Virus record (IMG/VR): IMGVR_UViG_3300043673_000039
Coordinates: 1 to 39,768 of that record
Strand: one strand, 5' to 3'
DNA: 39,768 bases
From: a virus
Part shown: positions 1 to 39,768 of the stretch, piece by piece
Numbering within the stretch: the first letter of the stretch is position 1
How the letters are laid out: the number at the start of each line of letters is the position of its first letter
Translations under genes and position numbers: made by a program
The notes under the pieces: model-generated
The model's input: only the letters and a program-made list of their open reading frames with translations
Told to the model about the DNA's origin: nothing
Database searches by the model: none

Positions 1-663
1 GGTGTGCGAGTAGAGGTTCTGCTCTTCAAACACATCGAAGGTTTTCAGTTTCCCCATCGAGCCTTCCTTGAACGCCTGGGTGATGGCGTCGGCCGGTTGG
101 AACAGGGAAGTGACTGGGGTGTTGATGGAGTTCGTCTGCATGGAAGACGAAATCAGCGCGCACCGTTTCTTGGCCAGTGCGGAGCCTGCCTTTTGCAGCA
201 TGCGGCCGCGGGCCTGATCGAGATAGGTGATCGAGGTGGGATCGGTGCCGAGCGAACCGACGATTTGCGAGATGTTGTTCTTGGCGAAAAATGCCGCCCG
301 CGAATCGATTTCGTTCGCGATCTGCACGCCGGCCGGTTCGAGATACTGCTCCCGAATCTCTTCCTCGCTGCGCTCCGCTTTAACGGCTGCTTCGTAATCG
401 TCCCATTGAAAGTCGATGCCGAAGGGCTGGTCGAGCGAAACCGTGGTCGAAATGCGGTTGATGCCTTGCGGGTTATATCCGAGTCCGTCCCGGATGGTGA
501 ACTGTTGCGGGAATTTGACTGTGATGGTCGTTCCGACGGCGAACGTCTTCTCGTAGTCTTTCTCCCAGTCTGAGTTGAAATATTCGGCAACCTTTAATGC
601 GTTCTTGAGGTTGCGCAACACCTCCATGGATATCCAGGAGGTGTTTAGGAATTGGTCTGCCAT
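1..663 (-). CDS. Major capsid protein, P22 coat (gp5)-like, C-terminus off the window
   Basis: Main shell protein of the virion. The ATG at 663 opens an uninterrupted frame of 221 codons that runs off the left edge, so only the N-terminal part is visible; P22-type coat proteins are roughly twice this length. The start reads MADQFLNTSWISMEVLRNLK, and residues of about 80-118 contain FGIDFQWDDYEAAVKAERS followed by a helix ending in ANEID. This is the E-loop to spine-helix region of HK97-fold P22 coats. It lies 4 bases downstream of the scaffold gene, the usual portal-scaffold-coat order. The stretch WDDYEAAVKAERS recurs exactly in a plus-strand ORF at 37931-38278. Family call rests on N-terminal pattern and synteny. 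Confidence 0.88.
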   Translation of the reverse strand, partial: MADQFLNTSWISMEVLRNLKNALKVAEYFNSDWEKDYEKTFAVGTTITVKFPQQFTIRDGLGYNPQGINRISTTVSLDQPFGIDFQWDDYEAAVKAERSEEEIREQYLEPAGVQIANEIDSRAAFFAKNNISQIVGSLGTDPTSITYLDQARGRMLQKAGSALAKKRCALISSSMQTNSINTPVTSLFQPADAITQAFKEGSMGKLKTFDVFEEQNLYSHT

Positions 664-8753: not shown

Positions 8754-9350
8754 CTACGCACGCGCGGCCTCCTGGCGCTGCATTCTGCCGTGTCGCCAGA
8801 GTGTCGTGCGGCTCGGCCCCTTCGCCGGATCGATCTTCGGCCCGGGGATGTGGCCCTTGGAGCGGGCGAGCTTCATGCCGATGCGCGTGTTCTCCGCGAT
8901 CACGTCGCGCTCAAACTCAGCGAGGGCGCAGAGGATGGTGAAGAACATCTTGCCGATCGGCGTGTCCAGGTCGAAGCCTTCCTGTTTGCTGATAAACCCG
9001 ACGCCGGCGTCGCGCAGCTCGGAGATCAGAGCGTGTAGGTGTTGCGTCGAACGCCCGAAACGGCTCAAGCGCCATACGACGACTGATTTGAAATCTCGCA
9101 GGCCCTTGGTTGCGTCGCGCATAAGCCGATCGAGTTCGGGCCGCGATTTTTTTGTGCCGGAGATCCCGCGATCGACATATTCCGATTCGATCAGGTGTTT
9201 CTGAGCTTGACACCATTCGCGAAGTTCGCGCAATTGCGCTTCCGGGTCCTGGCCGCGGAACTCATGCGCCGCTGCCTCGTGTGTTATCGGCTTCTTTCCG
9301 CAGATCTCGCATTTGTCGGTCGAGACTCGGGCGTAGAGAGCGACTTTCAT
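8754..9350 (-). CDS. Small serine recombinase (resolvase/invertase family), unusual insert
   Basis: 198 residues. Catalytic core clear: KVALYARVST with nucleophile Ser10, SVVVWRLSRFGRS with the active-site Arg pair, and a long E-helix (FFTILCALAEFERDVIAENTR). Members cut and rejoin two sites through a 5' phosphoserine link for resolution, inversion or integration. Two oddities stand out. After Ser10 there is an extra segment carrying C14xxC17 and H24xxxxH29, a possible zinc site. The C-terminal helix-turn-helix is shortened to little more than a recognition helix (SRTTLWRHGRM). No recombination site was recognised. It is the only recombinase or integrase-type gene in the window. Confidence 0.9.
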   Translation of the reverse strand: MKVALYARVSTDKCEICGKKPITHEAAAHEFRGQDPEAQLRELREWCQAQKHLIESEYVDRGISGTKKSRPELDRLMRDATKGLRDFKSVVVWRLSRFGRSTQHLHALISELRDAGVGFISKQEGFDLDTPIGKMFFTILCALAEFERDVIAENTRIGMKLARSKGHIPGPKIDPAKGPSRTTLWRHGRMQRQEAARA

Positions 9351-10460: not shown

Positions 10461-11483
10461 TTACGGGCGTGCTAGAGCTTTTGCGGTTTGCTCCTGAAAA
10501 CTTCGTAAACGTAAAGAACTTATTAAGGCCACCGCCGTGACGATGTACGCCCAGATGAAATACCGGGCTTCAGGTGAAGGGAATAGAAGAAAATGCGCGA
10601 GCGCGGCCGTGGCGGTCACGACCAAAAATGGCGACGGCCGCAGGCACCACGCAACAATGCCGAGAAGAATCCAAAGCGCCAGCTGCGGAAAAACCGAAAA
10701 GGCTCCCCTTGCGCACTGCACAAGGTATTCATGGATCGTAACCGAATGCGCGACCGTTGCGGCGCGTCCACCGAAGAAGCTGAGACGGAATAGCACTGCC
10801 CACCCGTAATTGTGCGCCCAACGATTGATGGCCATCACCGCAGCCACTCCAATTCCGGCAACGGCTACCGCGATGGGAGCCGATATCGCTTTTTCCCAGG
10901 CTAGCCAACCGATCACCGCGAACAACAAAAGAAGATTGTCGGTCCTCATCCCGAGCGAAACAAGGAGGAGAGCGATGGGGGCGATTGGCGATGACAATTT
11001 GCGATCGACGAGCCACAGCGCAGATATGCCGAAGAGAGACGCTAAAGCATCGGGAGTTCCCATTCTGCCCAAAACCGAGATCGGGTAGCAGGCCGCTAAA
11101 AGAGCGCTCGCAAGAGGATCGCGCGTCCATGCGAGCACGATGATGCAGATCCCCACGAACGAAGATGCTGATATCAGGTTGATGGCACCCTGAAGAGGAA
11201 GCCATCGTGCGATGAGGGCAATTGCCTCCACGTAGATCGGCCGAATCCGGTAAAGGGGCATGATCTCCACGAGATGCTCCGGGCTGTCCAGGGTCTCGCT
11301 CTCTTCGGCGCGCGGGCTCTCGTGTTTCACAGCCTGGTAGACCTCGCCGATCGGCTGCGAACGAGCACGAACGAGCGCCTCGTAAATGTAACGATCGAAA
11401 TCATCGGTAAGAGGATGCCGGTAATAAACCCAGCCAAGGGCGATGATGAACAAAAGGGAAGCAGAGAGCTTCCACCTAGACAT
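10461..11483 (-). CDS. Polytopic membrane protein, GT-C glycosyltransferase-like
   Basis: 340 residues with about nine to ten hydrophobic helices. An aspartate pair sits in the first outer loop (HPLTDDFDRY, D27/D28), the hallmark place of the catalytic acid motif in GT-C transferases that use polyprenyl-phosphate sugars. Such enzymes on phages often alter the host surface sugar, as GtrC-type proteins do in serotype-converting phages; here that role is inference. The start ATG at 11483 lies inside the end of the 50-residue gene upstream (8-base overlap), so the two are coupled. It looks like a moron placed between the recombinase block and the early promoter. Confidence 0.72.
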   Translation of the reverse strand: MSRWKLSASLLFIIALGWVYYRHPLTDDFDRYIYEALVRARSQPIGEVYQAVKHESPRAEESETLDSPEHLVEIMPLYRIRPIYVEAIALIARWLPLQGAINLISASSFVGICIIVLAWTRDPLASALLAACYPISVLGRMGTPDALASLFGISALWLVDRKLSSPIAPIALLLVSLGMRTDNLLLLFAVIGWLAWEKAISAPIAVAVAGIGVAAVMAINRWAHNYGWAVLFRLSFFGGRAATVAHSVTIHEYLVQCARGAFSVFPQLALWILLGIVAWCLRPSPFLVVTATAALAHFLLFPSPEARYFIWAYIVTAVALISSLRLRSFQEQTAKALARP

Positions 11484-11628
11484 TCTTTTCTCTTTTCGGT
11501 TTTTCCCAGCGGGCTTGGGCGGCGCGGCGGGCTTTTTCTTTACGCTGTTTCGGTGTGAGTTTGCTATTCGTCGCCTTGGCCCCGCGTCGGCCTAGCTTTG
11601 AAAGGTAGTCTTTGACGGGATCGGCCAT
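11476..11628 (-). CDS. 50-residue basic protein coupled to the membrane protein
   Basis: Starts at the ATG at 11628, MADPVKDYLSKLGRRGAKAT, and ends with a Lys/Arg-rich helix (LTPKQRKEKARRAAQARW, then KPKREK). Nearly a third of residues are Lys or Arg, which suggests nucleic-acid or membrane-surface binding. The LxxxGRRGAKAxxxxLTPxxRxExARxAAxARW pattern looks like a compact conserved family and not chance coding. Its stop overlaps the start of the membrane protein. Not functionally recognised. Confidence 0.7.
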   Translation of the reverse strand: MADPVKDYLSKLGRRGAKATNSKLTPKQRKEKARRAAQARWEKPKREKNV

Positions 11629-11646
11629 AACCGCACATTACCATGG

Positions 11647-11732
11647 TGCTCACCGGACGGGCAAGCACGAAAAAGTGTAGAGAACGAGCGGAAAACCCCG
11701 CAAATAGCTCTTGACAATGCTCGCCGGACGAG
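11647..11732. repeat. Two-copy direct repeat around the rightward promoter (candidate operators)
   Basis: TGCTCACCGGACGGG at 11647-11661 and TGCTCGCCGGACGAG at 11718-11732 match at 13 of 15 positions, 71 bases apart. The second copy fills the spacer between the -35 and -10 of the rightward promoter and is itself dyad-like (CTCG...CGAG). The first is bracketed by GTGCT...AGCAC. A regulator bound here would block the promoter. Confidence 0.5.
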
Positions 11733-11740
11733 AATAGAAT
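11711..11740 (+). promoter_or_regulatory. Sigma70-like promoter of the rightward early operon
   Basis: Consensus -35 TTGACA at 11711-11716 and near-consensus -10 TAGAAT at 11735-11740, spaced 18 bases. It lies about 85 bases upstream of the first plus-strand gene, leaving a leader that ends in AAGGAGG before the ATG at 11826. Confidence 0.75.
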
Positions 11741-11825
11741 GTTACATGTAATCAGTAGTCGGGCCGTCTGAGTGTTAGAAGCACCCAAGCGGCCCTAACC
11801 AAATCAGCCTTATAAGGAGGCTTCA

Positions 11826-12083
11826 ATGGCTCACAGCACTCTACCAGTTTTCTCCCCTTCCACATTTGCACAGCTGATTCCCTCCATCGTCGGCCGCGAA
11901 ATCGCGCGGGTCGATCGCATCCTCGCCGAAGCCGAACTCTCCACTTGCGATTACGTTGAGCCGGAATCGGTGTACGGGGCGTGCGATGGCGGCTTCTCGT
12001 GCACCGAGAAAGCGACGGTGCATCACCTCGAAACCGATCTCGAATATTGCGCCGGGCATTTCCAGGAGGTGGACCTTGGCTGA
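11826..12083 (+). CDS. First gene of the rightward early operon, small Cys/His protein
   Basis: 85 residues from the ATG at 11826, preceded by a full AAGGAGG ribosome site. The N-terminal half is helical (LIPSIVGREIARVDRILAEA). The C-terminal half holds four Cys (Cys41, GACDGGFSC, EYCAGHF) with two adjacent His (VHHLE), which could form one zinc site. Early position behind a strong promoter suggests takeover or regulation, but the protein is not recognised. Confidence 0.75.
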   Translation: MAHSTLPVFSPSTFAQLIPSIVGREIARVDRILAEAELSTCDYVEPESVYGACDGGFSCTEKATVHHLETDLEYCAGHFQEVDLG

Positions 12084-24950: not shown

Positions 24951-27431
24951 CTAGTCCTCAATCGTATATTGCGGGCAAGTCTGCCCGGTCGTCGAAGTCA
25001 ATGCGATTGTAAAGCTCACTCCCGGCGATACGGCCGAGATTGTGGGCATCGTCGTCGTCAAGGGCGCAACGCACGTCGGCGTGCTCGGCAGATCGGATGC
25101 GAACGTGAGCCAGGTCAAACCAATCCGGCTGTGCGAAGTGACGGCTGTCGTGTTGACGGTGTAAGTCGCAGTCGTCGTCGGAATGACGACGGCTCCCGCT
25201 GCCGCCGATCCGCACGCGGCCGGCGAGGCCGAATTCACCGCGCAGTTTGTGTTGGTCGAGTAAGTGAATGCGCCGACTGATCCTGTCTGATCGACGGTCG
25301 GAGCCGTGGCGCCGTTTCCAGCGAGGCCATTGTCGACGAAGGCGGTGTTGAACGGGAATGGGATGTTGCCGATCAACCCTAGCGTCGCTGGCGTTCCGCC
25401 GGAAACCGTGCGATAGATGTTGATGCTATAGATTTCCTTTTGGTTCGGGAAACTGGCGCAGCAACCCATCGTGTTGAAGTTCGTTCCGTTGAGAGTTGGA
25501 GCCCCGACCGCGGTTGTGAATGTTCCGCTGTGCGGCGCTTCCCGTCCGTTTCTATCGACGGCCACCGCCACATAACTCCAGGTGTTCGTGCAACTGCCGG
25601 TGCAGGTAATCGATACCAGAGTCGGCGCTCCAATCGTGCCGAACTGGTTAGCTGCGGAGACGCTGCCGGTGAAGCCCTGCGGAGCAACGATCGGGCCGCC
25701 AAAATAATTCTGCCCCGACCCGACGGCTCCGCTCTTGCTGTAAAAGTTGTAATCTGCCGTGTTCGAGCCGAAGTCCTCGGAAAAGAACCCGTAATTGGCA
25801 TTGGCGAAGCGGGTGATGGCTCCAGTAGGGGCTAAGGCGTAAAGACCTGCCGCCGCTGAATCCGTCGAGCCGCCATTGACGCCTGCGTCCCCAAGCACTC
25901 CTGCGAAGCAGACCGACTGGTTGGCAGCGGTACAGTTACCACCCGTCGCGGTTGAACTTGAGTTTGCTGACGTCCCTATAACTCCGGTGTAATGAACGCC
26001 CGAGCTAAAAGTTGTCGTGGCTACATTTGTCCGTTCTCCAAACCCGCTTACTCCGGCAATAGCGCCAGCGCCGCCATTGCCGGCAGGTCCGGTGCGTCGA
26101 TCCGCGAATGTTCCGCGCAGCGAAGAAGGCGGCTCGATCTGGTTCAGAACGGCTGTCCCGTAAAGATCGGTTTCGGAATACAAACCCAGCCATGGGTTCG
26201 AGTAGGTCGTGCTATCCGTGCCGTTTGGATTGTTCTCAATCTGCACTTGCATGGGGACGGTGAAGGGCGAGACCACGCGATGAAAAACGACGAGTGCGCC
26301 GTTCGCCCCAAAGTCCGGCGCGACGCCGGAGGAATTGAAAATGACGGGCCGGCAGAACTCGATGAATCCCTTGTAGCCGACGTTGTTAAATGTCGTGGTC
26401 GTATCGAGACCGGCGCCGGTGTGAAAATTTCCGGCGGTGTCTTGCTGGAAGGCGAACGGATTTACACCCGTGGGACACTCGCTCGCCTGAAGATTCGGTG
26501 GATTGACCGGGATGGTCGTATTCGTCGAAGGCGGCACGGCTCCGGTGCCCGACGTGCCGATGACGCAATTTGTGGTGATGGCGACGCAGGCCGCGAGAGC
26601 GGTTTGCTGCTTTTCAGTTCCGGCAGCGCCATTCGCGGAATAGACGGTATAAGTTTGTCCCGCCGTTAAGGTTGGTGCCGTGACCGTAACTGAACAAGCA
26701 GAGCCGGAAGCGCAATTGTTGCCGCTATTCAGGTTGAAAACTTTTTCGAGTGATGGCAGCGAGCTCCCCAATGCGTTATTGATGGTGATCTGAACGTATT
26801 CGATAGTTCCTGTGGTCAGCGTGCCTCCGGTCAGAGCCCCGGTCAGTACGGGTTGCGGCGCGAAGAGTCCAGCCCCGCCGGGAGAGAGCCAACTCGTGGT
26901 ATTGGTGACCTGGCCGGAGCCCGATGGAGTGAGACTCGCATCGCCAGAACTATTCGAACCAACGGCCATCGCCGCGCCCACGTTGGTGCTCGATGTAAGC
27001 GCGGAGAATGCATTCGACCCTGTTCCCCCTGCCGCTCCGGAGCCTGCCGGAGCCTGGCTGAGATTCAGCCAGACGTTGGCCGTGCCGCTCGTTACCGTGT
27101 TGCCGCAAATGAGCAGATTCGAGTAGCCGGCGACGAGGGTGAAGTACGCGCCATTGGCGGTGATAGTCGCTTGCGCGGTCGTCGAAGTCGAAGGCGTCAC
27201 CTGGACGTTGAAGGCAGCCTGCCCCTGAATCGCGGCTTGCGGCTGCAGCGTGCCGGACCAGGTGCCGGTCACTTGAATGCCGACAACCGACGAAAACAGA
27301 GAAACGCCGATCGGGGCGCACTGGTTAGAGGTGATTGCGAACGGCCCGACCGTCTGCGCAAAAATCGGCAGCGAGCAGAAAACGAGCAGGCAAAGGCCAG
27401 CGGCGGAGAAAAAACGGAAAGTTTTCATCAT
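24951..27431 (-). CDS. Large secreted-type tail appendage protein
   Basis: 826 residues from the ATG at 27431. Sec signal peptide (MKTFRFFSAAGLCLLVFCSL, cleavage near FAQ), then a domain paralogous to the whole product of the next gene: VTGTWSGTLQPQA and TTAQATITANGAYF. The remainder is Thr/Ser/Gly/Asn-rich and beta-strand rich, with GVIGTSANSSST-like repeats, typical of fibres or spikes. A middle unit around residues 360-640 has FRAGFY-like beta-helix spacing without a clear catalytic motif. It lies downstream of the ejection proteins, where P22 carries its tailspike. A signal peptide on a virion fibre is unusual. Confidence 0.7.
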   Translation of the reverse strand: MMKTFRFFSAAGLCLLVFCSLPIFAQTVGPFAITSNQCAPIGVSLFSSVVGIQVTGTWSGTLQPQAAIQGQAAFNVQVTPSTSTTAQATITANGAYFTLVAGYSNLLICGNTVTSGTANVWLNLSQAPAGSGAAGGTGSNAFSALTSSTNVGAAMAVGSNSSGDASLTPSGSGQVTNTTSWLSPGGAGLFAPQPVLTGALTGGTLTTGTIEYVQITINNALGSSLPSLEKVFNLNSGNNCASGSACSVTVTAPTLTAGQTYTVYSANGAAGTEKQQTALAACVAITTNCVIGTSGTGAVPPSTNTTIPVNPPNLQASECPTGVNPFAFQQDTAGNFHTGAGLDTTTTFNNVGYKGFIEFCRPVIFNSSGVAPDFGANGALVVFHRVVSPFTVPMQVQIENNPNGTDSTTYSNPWLGLYSETDLYGTAVLNQIEPPSSLRGTFADRRTGPAGNGGAGAIAGVSGFGERTNVATTTFSSGVHYTGVIGTSANSSSTATGGNCTAANQSVCFAGVLGDAGVNGGSTDSAAAGLYALAPTGAITRFANANYGFFSEDFGSNTADYNFYSKSGAVGSGQNYFGGPIVAPQGFTGSVSAANQFGTIGAPTLVSITCTGSCTNTWSYVAVAVDRNGREAPHSGTFTTAVGAPTLNGTNFNTMGCCASFPNQKEIYSINIYRTVSGGTPATLGLIGNIPFPFNTAFVDNGLAGNGATAPTVDQTGSVGAFTYSTNTNCAVNSASPAACGSAAAGAVVIPTTTATYTVNTTAVTSHSRIGLTWLTFASDLPSTPTCVAPLTTTMPTISAVSPGVSFTIALTSTTGQTCPQYTIED

Positions 27432-27463
27432 GGGGATGTGGGATCGAATTCGGAAAAAGGAAG

Positions 27464-27844
27464 TTAGTGTCCTGCGGTCGAGATATTCAGATACACCGAG
27501 GCGGTGCCGGTGATGGTGTTGCCACAAAGAAGAAACGTCGAATAGCCGGAGACCCCGGTGAAGTACGCCCCATTGGCCGTGATGGTCGCTTGCGCGGTGG
27601 TCGAGTTCGCGGGGGTGGCCTGCGCATTCACGGCCGGCTGTTCGGCGACCGACACTTGTGGTTGAATCGTCCCGGACCAGCTGCCCGTGACCTGATAGGT
27701 TGCCGTGCCGCGCTGCGTGACGCGGACAGCGGCGCATTGCGTGCCGGTGAGTGAGTAAGGGCCGAAAGACTGGCCGTGCGCGAACATGGCGCAGGCGAGC
27801 AAAATCAAACCGAAGACAAGAGCGTGACGCGCGGAGTTTTTCAT
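27464..27844 (-). CDS. Small secreted-type beta protein, paralogue of the neighbouring N-terminal domain
   Basis: 126 residues. Sec signal (ALVFGLILLACAMFAHGQ), then one beta-sandwich-like domain: VTGSWSGTIQPQVSV, TTAQATITANGAYFTGVSGY and LLCGNTITGTASVYLNIS. More than half of it is identical to the N-terminal domain of the 24951-27431 product by eye, so the pair arose by tandem duplication. The two conserved Cys may form a disulphide outside the cytoplasm. Likely an adhesin or appendage module. Confidence 0.7.
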   Translation of the reverse strand: MKNSARHALVFGLILLACAMFAHGQSFGPYSLTGTQCAAVRVTQRGTATYQVTGSWSGTIQPQVSVAEQPAVNAQATPANSTTAQATITANGAYFTGVSGYSTFLLCGNTITGTASVYLNISTAGH

Positions 27845-27851
27845 ATAGTTT

Positions 27852-29363
27852 CTAGTTACTCAAAACTGGAGTGACGGCGAGGAAGGTCGCTTCGGCCGGG
27901 GTGAAAGTAAAGAGGCCGCTATTCACGGTGACGGTCTGGCCGGCGTTGCACTGGATCTGCAAAGTGAATGTTGCGGTCGCGCCGGCGGCGTAGGTTGCGC
28001 TCGAAACTTCCGAACTGGTAAGCGCTGAGAAGCCGCTTCCGTTGCCGTCGAGGCCGCTGAGAGCAAAAGCTCGGCTATTGGTTGTGTCGATCGCTTCCGC
28101 CGCGCACGCATTGTTGCCGGCCGTCATCCATGCGCTGTAGCGGACGTCGGCGCGATAGGTGCCAGTTCCGGACGGGAAAGAAACGCTTTCGGTTAGGACG
28201 ATGGTCTGCGTGTTCGCGACGAGAACAACCGGAGATCCGAGATTGACGCGCTGCGGCGCAAATACCGGACCCGATCCTGAGCAACTGGTGGTAGCGCCGC
28301 CATTTGCATCGGTACAGAGTGGCGAACCCGTTCCGGTCACAGTGCTCGACGATAAAATCTTTACGTCCGGCGAGCCTTGCACGGAGGTCTGCGCCACAGA
28401 TCCGTTGACGGCGATGGAAGTGAATTTTCCGCTGTTGGGAGTGGTTGAGCCGATCGTGCCAGGCGCTTCCCAGGTACCGCCTTCGAGTTGACTGGCGTTG
28501 AGATTCGCAACCTGCGTGGTGGAAGCGACGACGAGCGGTGGCTGGCCGGTCGCGATATTCGAAATGAGTTGCGTTCCGGTAATCGTGCCGCTGGCGATCA
28601 AACTTCCGACCGATACCGCGGGACCGGTGCCGGTGACGCCTGGCCCGAGCGCGATCGCATTCGTTCCGTTCCAGTAAAAGAATTGGCTTGTGACCTGGTT
28701 CGCGGCGGTGCCGATCGGAGCTCCGCCGATCAGGTTCGCTGGCCAGGTGAAGGTGTGGCCCCCAGCGGAGTCCTGCGTGATTTGAAACGCGATCCACGCC
28801 GGCGGGATGATTCCGACAGCCGTCATCGGCTGCGCGACGGCGTTTCCGGTGAGCGTTATCTCGAAGAGTTGGTTTTCGGCCTGAACTGGAAAGACAGGCG
28901 TAGCGCTGTAAGTGACGAGCGTGGTGAGGATCGTGAGACCGCCGCCGATTCCGTCGATTGTGTACTGCGTCGTTCCGAGAGCGCAGTTCGTGCCACCGGC
29001 AGAGACAGCTTTTAGCGAGTAGGCCTGGCCCGCCTGGATCCAGACGCCGCTCGATCCCGTTCCGGTGAAGCCGCCTATCGTGAGGATGACGGGGTTGGTG
29101 TTTTGCACTGTGCCGGTGTAATCGGTATAAGTTGCAAGGGCGGTGGTGGTGCCGGAGATATAGCTGAAGAGGCAGCCGAAGGCGAGCGGGCGCCCGGAAT
29201 TGTCGAAATATTGCGGTTTCGGGACCGGCGCGAGCACCACGGGAACGGCCGTTGCACCGGCAAAACCCGAAGAAACCGCGAGTAATAGGGCAAGTAACAG
29301 GAACTTAGTAACTGATCGTAAGTGCCATTGTTGCGGGTTCGCAAGCGAATTAAGCTTTGTCAT
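27852..29363 (-). CDS. Tail fibre/spike with P22-tailspike-type head-binding domain and signal-like N-terminus
   Basis: 503 residues from the ATG at 29363. After a hydrophobic stretch (FLLLALLLAVSSGFAGATA) comes VPKPQYFDNSGRPLAFGCLF, then SGTTTALATYTDYTGT and GVWIQAGQAYSLKAVSAG. That is the 'yFdn.GkPLa.G.lytY.aGTt..~aTYtD..g ... i.l..G.sY' pattern of tailspike head-binding domains. The middle is Gly/Ser/Thr-rich; the C-terminus (~390-503) resembles a compact beta fold with TLQIQCNAGQTVTV. It probably binds the neck and carries the receptor domain. Confidence 0.75.
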   Translation of the reverse strand: MTKLNSLANPQQWHLRSVTKFLLLALLLAVSSGFAGATAVPVVLAPVPKPQYFDNSGRPLAFGCLFSYISGTTTALATYTDYTGTVQNTNPVILTIGGFTGTGSSGVWIQAGQAYSLKAVSAGGTNCALGTTQYTIDGIGGGLTILTTLVTYSATPVFPVQAENQLFEITLTGNAVAQPMTAVGIIPPAWIAFQITQDSAGGHTFTWPANLIGGAPIGTAANQVTSQFFYWNGTNAIALGPGVTGTGPAVSVGSLIASGTITGTQLISNIATGQPPLVVASTTQVANLNASQLEGGTWEAPGTIGSTTPNSGKFTSIAVNGSVAQTSVQGSPDVKILSSSTVTGTGSPLCTDANGGATTSCSGSGPVFAPQRVNLGSPVVLVANTQTIVLTESVSFPSGTGTYRADVRYSAWMTAGNNACAAEAIDTTNSRAFALSGLDGNGSGFSALTSSEVSSATYAAGATATFTLQIQCNAGQTVTVNSGLFTFTPAEATFLAVTPVLSN

Positions 29364-29364
29364 A

Positions 29365-29586
29365 ATGAGTCCGGATTCGATCGAGTACGAGCTGGTGAAT
29401 TTTGAATCACGCGAGATCTGGAAGTGCCTGGGCAAGTGTGGGCGCTTTCGTCATCGCGCCGCCCGGCCGGGGATCCTGCCCGCGGTGTGCTGCAGCCAGC
29501 CGGCGCGCCTCTTCGATCGATACGAGCAACCGACGATCGTCAACATTTCGGAGCCCATCATCTCTACTGCATCCGCCGGACAATAA
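29365..29586 (+). CDS. Possible small counter-strand Cys protein
   Basis: 73 residues from the ATG at 29365: MSPDSIEYELVNFESREIWK, then CLGKCGRFRHR and VCCSQPARLFDRYE. It just fills the gap between two minus-strand genes and overlaps the upstream gene's end by 23 bases. Its start is one base from the divergent spike start, leaving no room for separate ribosome sites. Composition is protein-like, but no upstream signal supports it. Confidence 0.35.
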   Translation: MSPDSIEYELVNFESREIWKCLGKCGRFRHRAARPGILPAVCCSQPARLFDRYEQPTIVNISEPIISTASAGQ

Positions 29587-33295: not shown

Positions 33296-34039
33296 TTATG
33301 CGCCTACGAACTGTCCTGCCATTTCTAGCGGTGAGGATCCGCCGCTGAAATCCATAGCCCCAAAGCCGTCGGCGAGTCCGCTCGCCATCCCGCCGGCCGC
33401 TTTGCCCCATTGCGATGCTGACTGCATATAACCCGAAGCTCTTGCGGCCGCGGCATTGTTCAACTGCTTTGCTTGTTGGTCCGCCGCGGTGAGATCGATG
33501 TTCGCGGTATTCTGCGCGCCAGCCTGGCCGAGCTGACCTTGTTCCGAAACCGCGGTCTGCCCGACGTTTGTTCCGCCGAGGAGCGTCTGATAATTACTCA
33601 TGTAGTTCTGCAGGGCGTTGTTATAAACCTGCTGATAATTCTGTGTGCCGAGTTGCTGGCCGTACTGCTGCAGCGCGGTGCCTTCGGAGCCTGAAAGCAG
33701 GTTGCCCGTCGCGGAGGCGCTTTTATCGAGCGCCGTGGTGCCCGATTGCAAAGCGAACTGATAGCCGGGATTGTTTTGGGCATCGGCGAGAGTAGGCGCG
33801 GAGAATCCGGTCTGCAGCTGCTTTTGCAGAGCGGCGGCCGAAGTCGAGCCGAGAGCCTGGTAGGGCGCTTCGTTCGCCTGGTTGGTTGAGGTCGCCGTAT
33901 TTTGCGCGGTGATTGCACTGTCCTGATTCTGCTTTTCGAGATCCTGCGCCTTTTTTGCGGCCTGCGATTCGACACTCGCCGCATCGTTCGCTGCGCCCGA
34001 CCCGAGAATTCCCCCGACTAGACTGCTGACAAAACTCAT
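33296..34039 (-). CDS. DNA transfer/ejection protein, P22 gp7-like
   Basis: 247 residues from the ATG at 34039 (MSFVSSLVGGILGSGAANDA), preferred over an Arg-rich extension to 34081. Small-residue N-terminal membrane-active helix, Gln/Asn/Ala-rich helices, then NPGYQFALQSGTTALDKSAS, ATGNLLSGSEGTALQQYGQQ and an AARASGYMQSASQWGKAAGG end. This 'NPGYqFal..G..aldrsAAA.G.l.SG....aL..yGq' pattern marks the DNA-transfer (p32/gp7-type) proteins of many podoviruses. It delivers DNA across the host envelope. Confidence 0.82.
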   Translation of the reverse strand: MSFVSSLVGGILGSGAANDAASVESQAAKKAQDLEKQNQDSAITAQNTATSTNQANEAPYQALGSTSAAALQKQLQTGFSAPTLADAQNNPGYQFALQSGTTALDKSASATGNLLSGSEGTALQQYGQQLGTQNYQQVYNNALQNYMSNYQTLLGGTNVGQTAVSEQGQLGQAGAQNTANIDLTAADQQAKQLNNAAAARASGYMQSASQWGKAAGGMASGLADGFGAMDFSGGSSPLEMAGQFVGA

Positions 34040-35970: not shown

Positions 35971-36429
35971 CTAAAATGTGCCGATGTCGAAAGGCCCGCT
36001 GATCTGGGAAAAACTGTAGTCGCCTGCTTGGGCAAGAACCGCACCCATCCGCCCAAACACCGATGCAACCGCGCCGCCGCCGCCGCTCGTACCGCAACAG
36101 CTCTCGATCCAGGAGGTCGCATTCGACTTAAAGCGAGCCGCCTCGTACTGTGTGGTCAGAACGACGGTGCCCGAAAGCGCGCCGTTGATCGTGACCGTGT
36201 TCGCGTCGGCCGACGTTTTTACGTAGATGATTTCCTGATTCTGGTTCGATTCGCCGGTGGTCGAATTCAAGCCTGCCGGCGGGAGCGCAATCACAACATT
36301 GCCGCCGCTGGTATCGATCTCGACGAGCGGCAATTGACGCTGCAGCGTGAACAAATATCTTTGCTCAGTTGGCGCAAGCTTCGAGTCGCGAAACGCCGGC
36401 GGGAAAAGCGTCGTTTGCTTTACGCTCAT
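35971..36429 (-). CDS. Fibre-like protein, paralogue of 35488-35970
   Basis: 152 residues from the ATG at 36429 (ATGA overlap with the gp10-like gene). PLVEIDTSGGNVVIALPPAG, then NQEIIYVKTSADANTVTING is a beta-hairpin unit seen in fibre shafts. The C-terminal VASVFGRMGAVLAQAGDYSF and QISGPFDIGTF segments resemble the same part of the neighbour. A CCGTSGGGG linker lies between. Not catalytic. P22 places gene 26 (tail needle) between 10 and 14; these genes may replace it (inference). Confidence 0.68.
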   Translation of the reverse strand: MSVKQTTLFPPAFRDSKLAPTEQRYLFTLQRQLPLVEIDTSGGNVVIALPPAGLNSTTGESNQNQEIIYVKTSADANTVTINGALSGTVVLTTQYEAARFKSNATSWIESCCGTSGGGGAVASVFGRMGAVLAQAGDYSFSQISGPFDIGTF

Positions 36430-37916
36430 GCCGCCTCCAGGGAAGCTGAGGCCTTCACGTAAGCATTGGCGATCCGCCAGGCGATCGGATCCGTAACTGC
36501 GATCTCCCAAACTCTTTTGCGCGCTCGGCCGAGCATCGACTTTCTGGCGCGCGCGTTCGTCTGGCCGGCGAAGCCGCAGTTCAAAAGAAAAGTGCTCGAC
36601 CAGTTTTTCGCGCCGTCGTTCGACCAGCGCAGCATGACTTGCGGCGGGCGAATATTCGAACCGTCGGCCGCGGGCGGGTTGCCATCGGTGGTCAATGGCG
36701 GTTGCGGACCAAGCCCAGCCTCGATGTCGAGCTCGAACTCATCGAAATAAACCCACTTGTTGTCTTTGTTCATCGTCGGTGATCGGCGAAGGCCGCGCAG
36801 GATTCCGCCGTTGTCGGTATAGATCGAGGTTGACTGCTCGTAGATGTTGCCGGAGGCCCAGTCGCCGACTAGGTGTTTGCCGAAAATGAACATGTGGCAC
36901 TGCGCGTGATCGGCGTCGTAAGTTCCGGAGATCGGGTTGTACGCGCCGCGCTGGTGCCAGAATTCGGTTGAGAAGTCGTAAACCCAGGTCGCGTTCGCGG
37001 TCGGGAAATAAATCTGCCAGAAGGTATGCCCGTCTTCCTGATAGGCGAAGCCGCGCGCGTCCGCGATCGTCGCGTAACTCTGCCAGGCAAATTCGACGGC
37101 GTGCGTCGAGATCCTCTGATTGGCATAGCCGTTCAACCGGTAGGCGACGGCGCCGCCGCGTTCGTCCTGGCCGATCCATGCGATCGTGTTATCCGCCTGC
37201 ACGGTTGCTGCCATGGCGCCCGCACCGAATTCGGCGAAGGCGCCCTGAATCGGAATGTAGGAAGGGAAGCCGGCGCCGGAGTTGTAATAGCCCGCTGATT
37301 TCTTCGCGGAGAAGAACCATGCCTCGCGGTGATCGCACTTCATGGAAACGAAGTTGTCCGGGAAAAGGGAAACCGTCGCGACATCGAGCCCGGACCAGGT
37401 TGTGCCATCTTCGAGCGATGACATCTGAAAAGTGTGCGTGTTCAGAAACCAGGCGAAAAAGAAGCCGTCGGCAAAGCCGATCTGCGCGACTGAATTCGGG
37501 CCGCCCTGCAGCTGCGACATAGTGACGGCCGTCAGAACGTTGGTCGCGAGAACCAGCACGTAGAGGTTGCCATTGTTGAGGCAGAGCAGCTGCGTTTCGT
37601 TCGCTTCCATCTGGCAGGGCCGGACAGGCTGCGCGCCACCGAGCGGCCCGCGATCGGTGAAGGTTCCGTTCGCGTTCAGTTCCCAGAGATGCGCTCCGGC
37701 GACGAAGCCGCGGCCGTTGATGTTGAATTCGGAAGTGATGCCCGCTTCGGGCAGTGCTGCGAAGAGCTTTTTCCCTGGCGCCAGAATGAGCGGGATCTGC
37801 GACTTCGCCCCGCCCGACTCCGAATGCTCGCAAAATAAATTGATTGCGAGCTCCGCATCGATGTTCGGAGAGATGGCCTGATAGGTCGGGCCGCAAAAGC
37901 CTGGAATGGGAGGCAT
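36426..37916 (-). CDS. P22 gp10-like neck (packaged-DNA stabilisation) protein
   Basis: 496 residues. The start MPPIPGFCGPTYQAISPNID, ELAINLFCEHSESGGAKSQI and APGKKLFAALPEAG is the gp10 pattern 'ip..ggs...rs...daqrliNlY.E......k....L..tPGl'. The rest is beta-propeller-like with repeated W/G turns: GADGFFFAW-type, RISTHAVEFAWQSYATI and GHTFWQIYFPTANATWVYDF. In P22, gp10 binds beneath gp4 and seals packaged DNA. Length is close to P22 gp10. Together with the gp4-like neighbour it makes the neck. Confidence 0.85.
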   Translation of the reverse strand: MPPIPGFCGPTYQAISPNIDAELAINLFCEHSESGGAKSQIPLILAPGKKLFAALPEAGITSEFNINGRGFVAGAHLWELNANGTFTDRGPLGGAQPVRPCQMEANETQLLCLNNGNLYVLVLATNVLTAVTMSQLQGGPNSVAQIGFADGFFFAWFLNTHTFQMSSLEDGTTWSGLDVATVSLFPDNFVSMKCDHREAWFFSAKKSAGYYNSGAGFPSYIPIQGAFAEFGAGAMAATVQADNTIAWIGQDERGGAVAYRLNGYANQRISTHAVEFAWQSYATIADARGFAYQEDGHTFWQIYFPTANATWVYDFSTEFWHQRGAYNPISGTYDADHAQCHMFIFGKHLVGDWASGNIYEQSTSIYTDNGGILRGLRRSPTMNKDNKWVYFDEFELDIEAGLGPQPPLTTDGNPPAADGSNIRPPQVMLRWSNDGAKNWSSTFLLNCGFAGQTNARARKSMLGRARKRVWEIAVTDPIAWRIANAYVKASASLEAA

Positions 37917-37930
37917 GCTAAATTTGTGGA

Positions 37931-38278
37931 GTGAATCGTCGCGGCTTCATGTCGCTGCTCGGAATGACGGCTGCAGGTATGGCGCTCAATCGCGCGATTC
38001 CGCTCGGCCGCGTCTGGTCGTTTCCAAAAGAGATTGTCATTGCGAAGCCTTCACTGAATTCTTGGTCCGTTGACTTCGAATGGGATGATTACGAAGCGGC
38101 CGTGAAAGCAGAACGCTCTCTGGAAAAAATTGGCGTCTTGTACTTACAACCGGCTGCGCGGCAGTTACTTGCAGAAATCCGGACAATCTATTCCGCCGCC
38201 CCGCCCGGAGCTCCACCAGTTGCCCAGTTAAAGTCTCCCTTCGATCCCGGCTTTCGTCCCGCTCTCGGCATGCCATAA
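37931..38278 (+). CDS. Tat-signal protein containing a coat-protein segment
   Basis: 115 residues, GTG start at 37931, on the plus strand between two late minus-strand genes. The N-terminus MNRRGFMSLLGMTAAGMALN is a twin-arginine export signal (RRGFM plus hydrophobic stretch). Residues 48-84 read VDFEWDDYEAAVKAERSLEK and continue through YLQPAARQLLAEI; 24 of 37 positions equal the phage's own coat protein, with WDDYEAAVKAERS identical. In that run five codons differ at a synonymous third base and Ser uses another codon family. The final ~25 residues are antisense to the gp4-like gene and may be read-through. GGGAGG lies rather far upstream. Role unknown. Confidence 0.68.
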   Translation: MNRRGFMSLLGMTAAGMALNRAIPLGRVWSFPKEIVIAKPSLNSWSVDFEWDDYEAAVKAERSLEKIGVLYLQPAARQLLAEIRTIYSAAPPGAPPVAQLKSPFDPGFRPALGMP

Positions 38279-38997
38279 TCCTGCGTCGACATGCGCGGGC
38301 TCTTCGCGTTGTTCCCAAACACGGCCGTTCTCGCCGCCAGAGCCGACGCAATCAGCACCGGGTGCGCTTCCTTGGCCGCACCCGGCAGAAGCGATTCCGC
38401 GAGCGTGAGCATGAGCGCCGCGCGGTAGGCTTGCGGCAGCGTTCCCGGTCCGCCTGGCCCGCCGATCGGATCGTTGATCGACTGGAAGCTTTGAATGGTT
38501 TGCCAGAACTGCAGCCGCACCTGAGACGCGGCGTTCGGCACCGGCCAGAAATTGAGCGTCCCGGTTGGCACTCCGTTTTCGTAGTAAACATCGGTCGGGA
38601 TGCTGGTTTGAATCTGTTTCGTCTGTTGCGCCGCCCACCAGTCGTGATCGCGGACCCTCATCGGCTGATCGACGAGCGTCCCGGATGTATTCAGGAGTAG
38701 CGCCGCCGATTCGAGGCGCACCGGTGCCGACAGCGTGCCCGTCGAGAAGTTGGCGGCGGGTACGAGGCCCGCGGGTCCTATGGTATGCGGCTGCAGTCCT
38801 GCGACCAGCGTGTAAATGAGGTACTGGTAGCCGTAGACGTAGCGCTCTGACGCCTGCCACACGTCAACGAGATAGTTGAACTTCCGGAAGGCCCATTGCG
38901 CGGTGTCGCCGTCCGGCGTGTCGCCCGGCGCGAGGATGCCGCACTCGATGAGCGCGTCAACGATGACGTCGAGACACTGGTAGGAGATCGGGGCCAT
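38188..38997 (-). CDS. P22 gp4-like tail accessory / head-completion protein
   Basis: 269 residues. SYQCLDVIVDALIECGILAP, then AQWAFRKFNYLVDVWQASER and LIYTLVAGLQPHTIGPAG match the gp4 pattern '..d.i..al...gi........a.....~LN~mv~~W~~~~~~~~~......l..g...ytiG'. Later FWPVPNAASQVRLQFWQTIQ and an ALMLTLAESLLPG helix agree. In P22, gp4 binds the portal as the first neck ring and also has a muralytic activity; the latter is not visible here. Its C-terminus overlaps the plus-strand Tat gene in convergent fashion by 91 bases. Confidence 0.82.
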   Translation of the reverse strand: MAPISYQCLDVIVDALIECGILAPGDTPDGDTAQWAFRKFNYLVDVWQASERYVYGYQYLIYTLVAGLQPHTIGPAGLVPAANFSTGTLSAPVRLESAALLLNTSGTLVDQPMRVRDHDWWAAQQTKQIQTSIPTDVYYENGVPTGTLNFWPVPNAASQVRLQFWQTIQSFQSINDPIGGPGGPGTLPQAYRAALMLTLAESLLPGAAKEAHPVLIASALAARTAVFGNNAKSPRMSTQDYGMPRAGRKPGSKGDFNWATGGAPGGAAE

Positions 38998-39536: not shown

Positions 39537-39768
39537 ATGAAACGAGTCGTTCTATTACTGTCGATTGTGCTGGTGTCGGCTCAAGGTTGGGCGCAAGGAG
39601 CGCGGTCCATTCTCACCGGCTGGTGTACTACAAATAATCCCAACAGTTCCACCGGCCAAACTGCTGGGTTCTTTGTGGGGCTCGGCGTAGTGTCTGGCTC
39701 CCAGCAATGCCTTGCGCAGCAACCGCCTTTCGCGCCGGAACTTGGAGCTTCGTTGCCTACGGGCGGAT
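39537..39768 (+). CDS. Secreted-type protein, truncated by the window end
   Basis: First 77 residues only. AAGGAGG stands nine bases before the ATG at 39537. The Sec signal (MKRVVLLLSIVLVSAQGWAQ) is followed by a Cys-containing segment: ILTGWCTTNNPNSSTGQTAG, FFVGLGVVSGSQQCLAQQPP. The two Cys, after export, may form a disulphide. Divergent from the late operon. Could be an exported accessory or appendage protein like those at 24951-29363; no similarity seen beyond the leader. Confidence 0.65.
   Translation, partial: MKRVVLLLSIVLVSAQGWAQGARSILTGWCTTNNPNSSTGQTAGFFVGLGVVSGSQQCLAQQPPFAPELGASLPTGG

Follow-up and report, generated by a model that had tools for sequence, protein, structure and literature searches.

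Why would a phage carry a short piece of coat protein behind an export-type leader, in a gene that runs against its own late operon? This arrangement occurs in IMG/VR virus record IMGVR_UViG_3300043673_000039, whose entire 39,768-nucleotide stretch is referred to here as the window. The open reading frame (37931..38278, + strand; GTG start, 115 aa) lies between the divergent head-closure gene Hc3 (phrog_578; 36426..37916, −) and the convergent head–tail adaptor gene (phrog_12985; 38188..38997, −), on the strand opposite the late operon. It encodes a 37-aa leader, VNRRGFMSLLGMTAAGMALNRAIPLGRVWSFPKEIVI (37931..38041, +), common to 60 cassettes; a coat-like piece, SVDFEWDDYEAAVKAERSLEKIGVLYLQPAARQLLAEI (38066..38179, +); and a C-terminal stretch, APPGAPPVAQLKSPFDPGFRPALGMP (38188..38278, +), that overlaps the 3′ end of the convergent adaptor gene. 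The final 30 codons alone overlap the adaptor gene, and because the coat-like piece is located in the gap between the two late genes, no coding sequence lies opposite it. The C-terminal ending recurs identically in L118b, L140, L144 and G010, and is probably dictated by the adaptor gene that overlaps it. A −10 box, TAAATT (37919..37924, +), with a TG one base upstream (37916–37917), stands 12 nt before the start codon in a leaderless arrangement, and the Hc3 start codon overlaps this promoter. With its conserved leader, its own promoter position and its relatives, the ORF can be regarded as real.

The coat gene at the other end of the window (1..663, −) encodes a P22-type major coat protein truncated by the window end (PF11651, 7.7e-8; phrog_283, 1.1e-25), and it lies, as a preliminary description of this locus had stated, on the strand opposite the ORF. 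The part that matches the ORF (304..426, −) does so at 59% identity (E 1.1e-11). Codon alignment reproduced the similarity reported in that description, with identical residues at 24 of 37 codons including the 13-residue run WDDYEAAVKAERS. Six codons in this run differ, all silently, and these changes amount to 8 nucleotides because serine is encoded by TCT in one gene and AGC in the other. Across the 37 aligned codons synonymous sites are saturated and dN is 0.30, in agreement with the earlier view that the protein and not the DNA has been kept. Recent duplication or assembly error, already thought unlikely, is ruled out by this saturation and by recurrence of the pattern in more than 60 contigs.

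Scored against a profile built from 87 coats, the 38-residue piece reaches E 2.2e-13 in the set of 60 tails described below, and it is the sole second coat-like place within the record. The piece corresponds to coat profile positions 82–119, running into and along the spine helix; the preliminary assignment to the E-loop and spine helix thus holds for the helix, and the E-loop is absent. The closest coat is that of another genome (G009, 27/36 identities), with the phage's own coat at 23/36, so the segment is coat as proposed but is not nearest to the resident copy. The full-length 115-aa ORF has no coat match in Pfam or PHROG, and its 38 matching residues fall short of the full ~400-residue fold of P22-type coats (PF11651/phrog_283); profile match and saturated synonymous sites together establish homology of the matched piece to that coat.

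An IMG/VR protein search with the ORF returned two kinds of match, coats at residues 45–83 and leader proteins at residues 1–39. This search, further scans and inspection of the surroundings of 80 coat loci yielded 60 proteins with the 'RVWSFPKEI' leader, a set that includes the window ORF and a few near-duplicates (L122/L123, G006/G007 and G039/G041). The leader is constant (consensus MNRRxFLSLxGxGVAGIALEQAIP[LF][GN]RVWSFPKEIVI) and the tails that follow it are variable. A sister leader clade, VRTFPFRV[FY]SFP, comprises 22 loci (L279–L300) with 18 distinct tails; locus L292 was excluded, as an exact 256-nt repeat at its contig end (4339–4594) is an assembly artefact that creates a false leader-protein tail. 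RRxF is invariant across the aligned leaders, which have the RR-x-F-L motif and hydrophobic stretch of Tat signals, and no clear A-x-A cleavage site is visible. The window ORF, described earlier as having a good Tat signal, is itself borderline (16.1 bits to TIGR01409 over residues 2–19, cut-off 16.7; PF10518 also below cut-off), and three of five relatives scanned pass TIGR01409 (L145, L159 and G014); the description as a Tat-type leader is supported. The leader matched none of 50,697 phage records or 72,556 plasmid records, and a scan of bacterial genomes gave a single, spurious match and no relative. A DNA pattern search for other Tat leaders fused to an ITREALR-type N-arm found none, a result of little weight given the strictness of the pattern. 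Elsewhere in the window (24951–29435, −, and 39537–39767, +), Sec-type signal peptides MKTFRFFSAAGLCLLVFCSLPIFAQT, MKNSARHALVFGLILLACAMFAHGQ and MKRVVLLLSIVLVSAQGWAQG open large tail-like and small proteins; such signals are unusual on phage tail proteins.

Many of the variable tails proved to be pieces of coat protein. The combination of Tat leader and coat segment that the preliminary description had proposed seeking in related phages is present: 23 of the 60 tails match the P22-type coat profile at E<0.01, against 0.01 per 60 expected from 200 shuffling rounds. The pieces are 17–55 residues long and differ between genomes, being drawn from profile positions 3–37 (N-arm), 29–62 (E-loop), 82–122 (spine helix), 239–268 and 369–405 (C-terminus), and taking in the I-domain flank. 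Placement relies on profile position and predicted secondary structure only (helix 13–22, hairpin 46–59, helix 100–133, strands 378–402), because the AlphaFold model of the coat is poor (mean pLDDT 45). Positions 123–238 contributed none of 27 pieces, although the information-weighted null for this comparison is badly calibrated and no avoidance of the region is claimed. Without exception the coat pieces are read in the sense orientation and the correct frame, for which the chance expectation is 1 in 6. L145 and G001 each carry two coat pieces in reversed order. Two-piece tails are mostly reversed relative to the coat (L145, G001, G014, G015, L294, L281/L282 and L298), the only forward-order cases, judged by eye, being G045 and L140. 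For roughly half of the tails no origin could be recognised. The preliminary description had offered leader homologues without the coat-like segment as grounds for rejecting its proposal; most relatives do lack this particular segment, but many carry other coat segments, and the finding is therefore strengthened.

Five coat families are represented among the tails, and phages with gpT-like, N4-like, phrog_9953 and phrog_14242 coats carry pieces of their own coat type. Where a genome lacked a P22 coat, its tail was searched against its own gene set, and in all three genomes with strong matches the match was the resident coat: the G044 tail picked out its own 344-aa coat (phrog_1357) as best of 2,587 genes (E 3e-8), and the best matches of G015 (phrog_9953, E 3.5e-6) and G014 (Mu gpT-like, PF10124, E 1e-4) were likewise their own coats, each in two reversed pieces. 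In the sister clade, 6 of 18 tails match the fifth coat family (phrog_14242-like) at E<0.01 (null 0.007), the L282 and L294 tails match their own coat family, and the L300 tail corresponds to positions 247–311 of the P22 coat (E 4e-8). Within the P22 group, the phage's own coat is the closest of about 100 for the tails of G024 (18/31 identities versus a median of 9) and G035, tied closest for G002 and close to closest for G042. For the remaining P22-group tails the resident coat is unremarkable (mean rank percentile 0.37), and horizontal exchange is therefore likely too.

Coat pieces are also attached to other small proteins. A six-frame coat-profile search of 117 contigs found about a dozen further small ORFs with such pieces. 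All five members of a DUF1660-like zinc-ribbon family end in the E-loop-like coat strand 'VGSTIRVKFPERW' and lie opposite the coat gene (L136 4657–4977, L147 8135–8434, L149 8607–9050, L132 6372–6584 and G013 33348–33572; all −), and all three members of a 170-aa family, on the coat strand, end in the coat C-terminus (profile 343–392; G016 11396–11917, L123 4232–4741 and L149 4342–4866; all +). Equivalent searches with terminase, portal, scaffold, adaptor, Hc3 and ejection profiles, under somewhat tighter filters, found almost no fragments, as against about 27 for the coat; because almost nothing comparable emerged, the coat is specifically used. Among the leader proteins, some tails resemble the adaptor (G003, G006, G007 and G027), Hc3 (L122a and L123a), the terminase Walker-A region (G029 and G004) or the portal (second half of L118a), in matches that are individually weak, mostly E ~0.001–0.02.

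The placement of the genes is equally regular. Leader and coat genes are on opposite strands in all 44 P22-coat cases in which both are on the contig, and on the same strand in the non-P22 records G014, G015 and G044. Exactly between Hc3 and adaptor neighbours lie 29 leader genes; others occupy the coat–adaptor slot, sit beside the portal gene or precede Hc3. Tails from the coat C-terminus are mostly found in the coat–adaptor slot (G002, G011, L122 6280–6702 and L123 12893–13306) and the remaining coat pieces mostly in the Hc3–adaptor slot, as though position and tail type were passed on together. Of 53 cassettes, 31 have TAnnnT exactly at −12/−13 from the start codon, mostly preceded by TG; transcription from this predicted promoter is therefore expected to begin at the start codon or close to it. 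The dN/dS analysis proposed in the preliminary description gave values below 1: 0.11–0.37 for the leader between relatives and 0.22–0.63 for the tail where measurable, synonymous sites being saturated elsewhere. A tyrosine recombinase is present in 17 of 24 records tested and a small serine recombinase in 4 others, including the window, a content that would fit a temperate or plasmid-like life. The small serine recombinase (window 8754–9350, −) was seen among the 24 records only where the tyrosine enzyme is missing. Neither the leader nor a coat piece outside the coat gene occurs in six phage isolates that have P22-type coats (hosts Vibrio, Pseudomonas, Shewanella and Thalassomonas; ~29% coat identity).

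Comparative sequence analysis thus defines a gene family of soil phages in which a constant Tat-type leader is joined to a variable tail of short pieces of the resident coat or, occasionally, of another morphogenesis protein. It demonstrates the constancy of the leader, the coat origin of many tails, their differing and sometimes permuted pieces and their tracking of the resident coat family, together with the opposite-strand position in the head operon, the −10 box beside the start codon and purifying selection. The coat-piece genes thus represent protein-level mimicry of the coat under purifying selection, neither relic nor accident. The suggestion that the ORF is a relic of a second coat gene fails against the differing and permuted pieces, the five coat families, the conserved slot and promoter and the low dN/dS. 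The other roles suggested in the preliminary description, an exported decoy and a coat-binding assembly or exclusion factor, are candidates still.

The product probably binds coat or some coat recogniser, and perhaps blocks rival phages. We infer that the tails bind coat or mimic it to a sensor, that the leader functions in export or in anchoring at the membrane, and that the gene is silenced by the opposing late operon during the phage's own assembly. The reading we tentatively favour, at well short of even confidence, is a trans-dominant coat decoy directed against the assembly of related phages that superinfect the cell. The tail would fill sites of contact between coat subunits, and the leader would deliver the product to the membrane together with any coat it had bound. 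The gene's own promoter would drive expression as long as the late operon is off, in a carrier state or early in infection, and the product would then spoil particle formation by such phages. Once the phage's own late operon came on, transcription from the opposite direction would silence the gene and its own capsids would be spared. Consistent with this proposal are the excess of coat matches among the tails, the own-coat matches of G044, G015 and G014 and the use of another coat family by the sister clade, the specificity for coat among late-gene profiles, the invariable opposite orientation in P22-coat cases and predominant Hc3–adaptor slot, the fixed promoter position, dN/dS below 1, recombinases that fit a temperate or plasmid-like state, and the existence of both assembly blockers (Tab, Tai) and coat-derived inhibitors (Ty1 p22, Ccm). 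It is weakened by the lack of an obvious need for a Tat leader in an assembly inhibitor, by pieces of 17–55 residues that may not fold or bind alone, by the half of tails without recognised origin, by the few P22-group tails that are closest to their own coat, by the absence of relatives in the bacterial genome scan, and by the zinc-ribbon and 170-aa carriers, which suggest a more general use in coat docking.

Those additional carriers favour a tag or tether, in which the piece inserts in the capsid lattice and attaches a leader, zinc ribbon or other small domain to the particle, either holding procapsids at the membrane or letting the protein travel inside virions to the next cell. Coat pieces end at least three unrelated families of small proteins, and for this purpose any piece that contacts coat would do; cargo should, however, be made together with coat, whereas both the Tat-type and the zinc-ribbon genes run against the late operon, and we regard docking as unlikely. 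An early-type promoter would fit an immune decoy, in which the pieces mimic the region of the coat detected by host sensors, binding those sensors without triggering them before the late coat appears. Bacterial sensors do bind coat directly (CapRel, PMC9712102; a TIR system, PMC11312562), variable tails would suit an arms race, and some tails resemble other late proteins, namely terminase, adaptor, Hc3 and portal. These non-coat matches are weak, however, and the leader and the restriction to one phage group go unexplained, making such an immune decoy a rather doubtful, if serious, alternative.

CapRel also provides a precedent for coat as a trigger (PMC9712102), and a constant effector-like part joined to a part that recognises the phage's own coat could form a switch: newly made coat would bind the coat-like tail and thereby free or activate a membrane-located leader, which would time lysis or abort the infection once coat appears. 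As the 37-aa leader has no known effector fold, we consider this very improbable. Scarcely better placed is the notion that the leader is the working part and the tails are leftovers of coat DNA captured by chance recombination. Hypervariable tails, many without recognisable origin, and a tail dN/dS above that of the leader would be expected from neutral capture; yet every coat piece is in frame and in sense, the protein is kept where synonymous sites are saturated, coat is used in preference to late genes that are longer, the pieces come from five coat families, and the six isolated P22-coat phages lack such pieces.

A broader interpretation, which we hold possible but with low confidence, is modular self-mimicry, in which constant leaders (two Tat-type clades, zinc ribbons and others) have recombined repeatedly with short, permutable segments from the coat of the same phage, and sometimes from other morphogenesis proteins, to form an exchangeable coat-recognising set in fixed head-operon slots; its Tat-type members would drag coat to the membrane as a layer of exclusion or assembly control. 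If the pieces bind coat, they would provide a prokaryotic counterpart of capsid-derived restriction factors and reveal assembly-critical coat contacts; if they bind host sensors, they would represent a new kind of anti-defence decoy and point to those sensors. Dozens of natural tail–coat pairs are at hand for direct tests of binding and assembly, and the recurrent in-frame, permuted capture raises the question of how phages build such chimaeras.

Among known systems, morons and lysogenic-conversion genes are extra genes with their own promoters among late genes. The family described here resembles them in its own promoter and opposite strand; morons, in contrast to many of these tails, do not derive from the coat of the phage that carries them. 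We found no described counterpart in phages to a constant export-type leader with interchangeable own-coat pieces, and no precedent in the open-access literature searched, within which the preliminary statement that no such Tat–coat system has been described holds good; the architecture fits the definition of no known family among those tested. Tab (PMC10884400) and Tai (PMC11364771) are prophage-encoded blockers of virion assembly that are neutralised in the lytic phase, and the proposed likeness is of a phage gene that blocks other phages' assembly and would have to be neutralised in its own lytic cycle. By their descriptions, however, they act on tail assembly, have separate counter-defence proteins and do not consist of a leader and coat pieces. 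CapRel, a bacterial defence that recognises coat protein (PMC9712102), and other coat-sensing defences are host sensors rather than phage mimics, and could be a target only. In SaPIbov5, the coat homologue Ccm of a mobile element is incorporated into the capsid of the helper, to the helper's detriment (PMC8569155); Ccm is a full-fold homologue, encoded by a satellite, that replaces coat in capsomers, whereas the present family consists of short, partly permuted pieces without a coat fold, encoded by the phage itself. Ty1 p22/p18 is a separately made fragment of the element's own capsid protein that inhibits assembly in trans (PMC4599808), and the window-ORF family shares with it derivation from the element's own capsid protein. 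Ty1 p22 is one long fragment, the C-terminal half of Gag, made from an internal start (PMC4599808), whereas the phage tails, as known here from sequence, are pieces of 17–55 residues taken from many regions of the coat and placed behind a constant leader in a separate gene.
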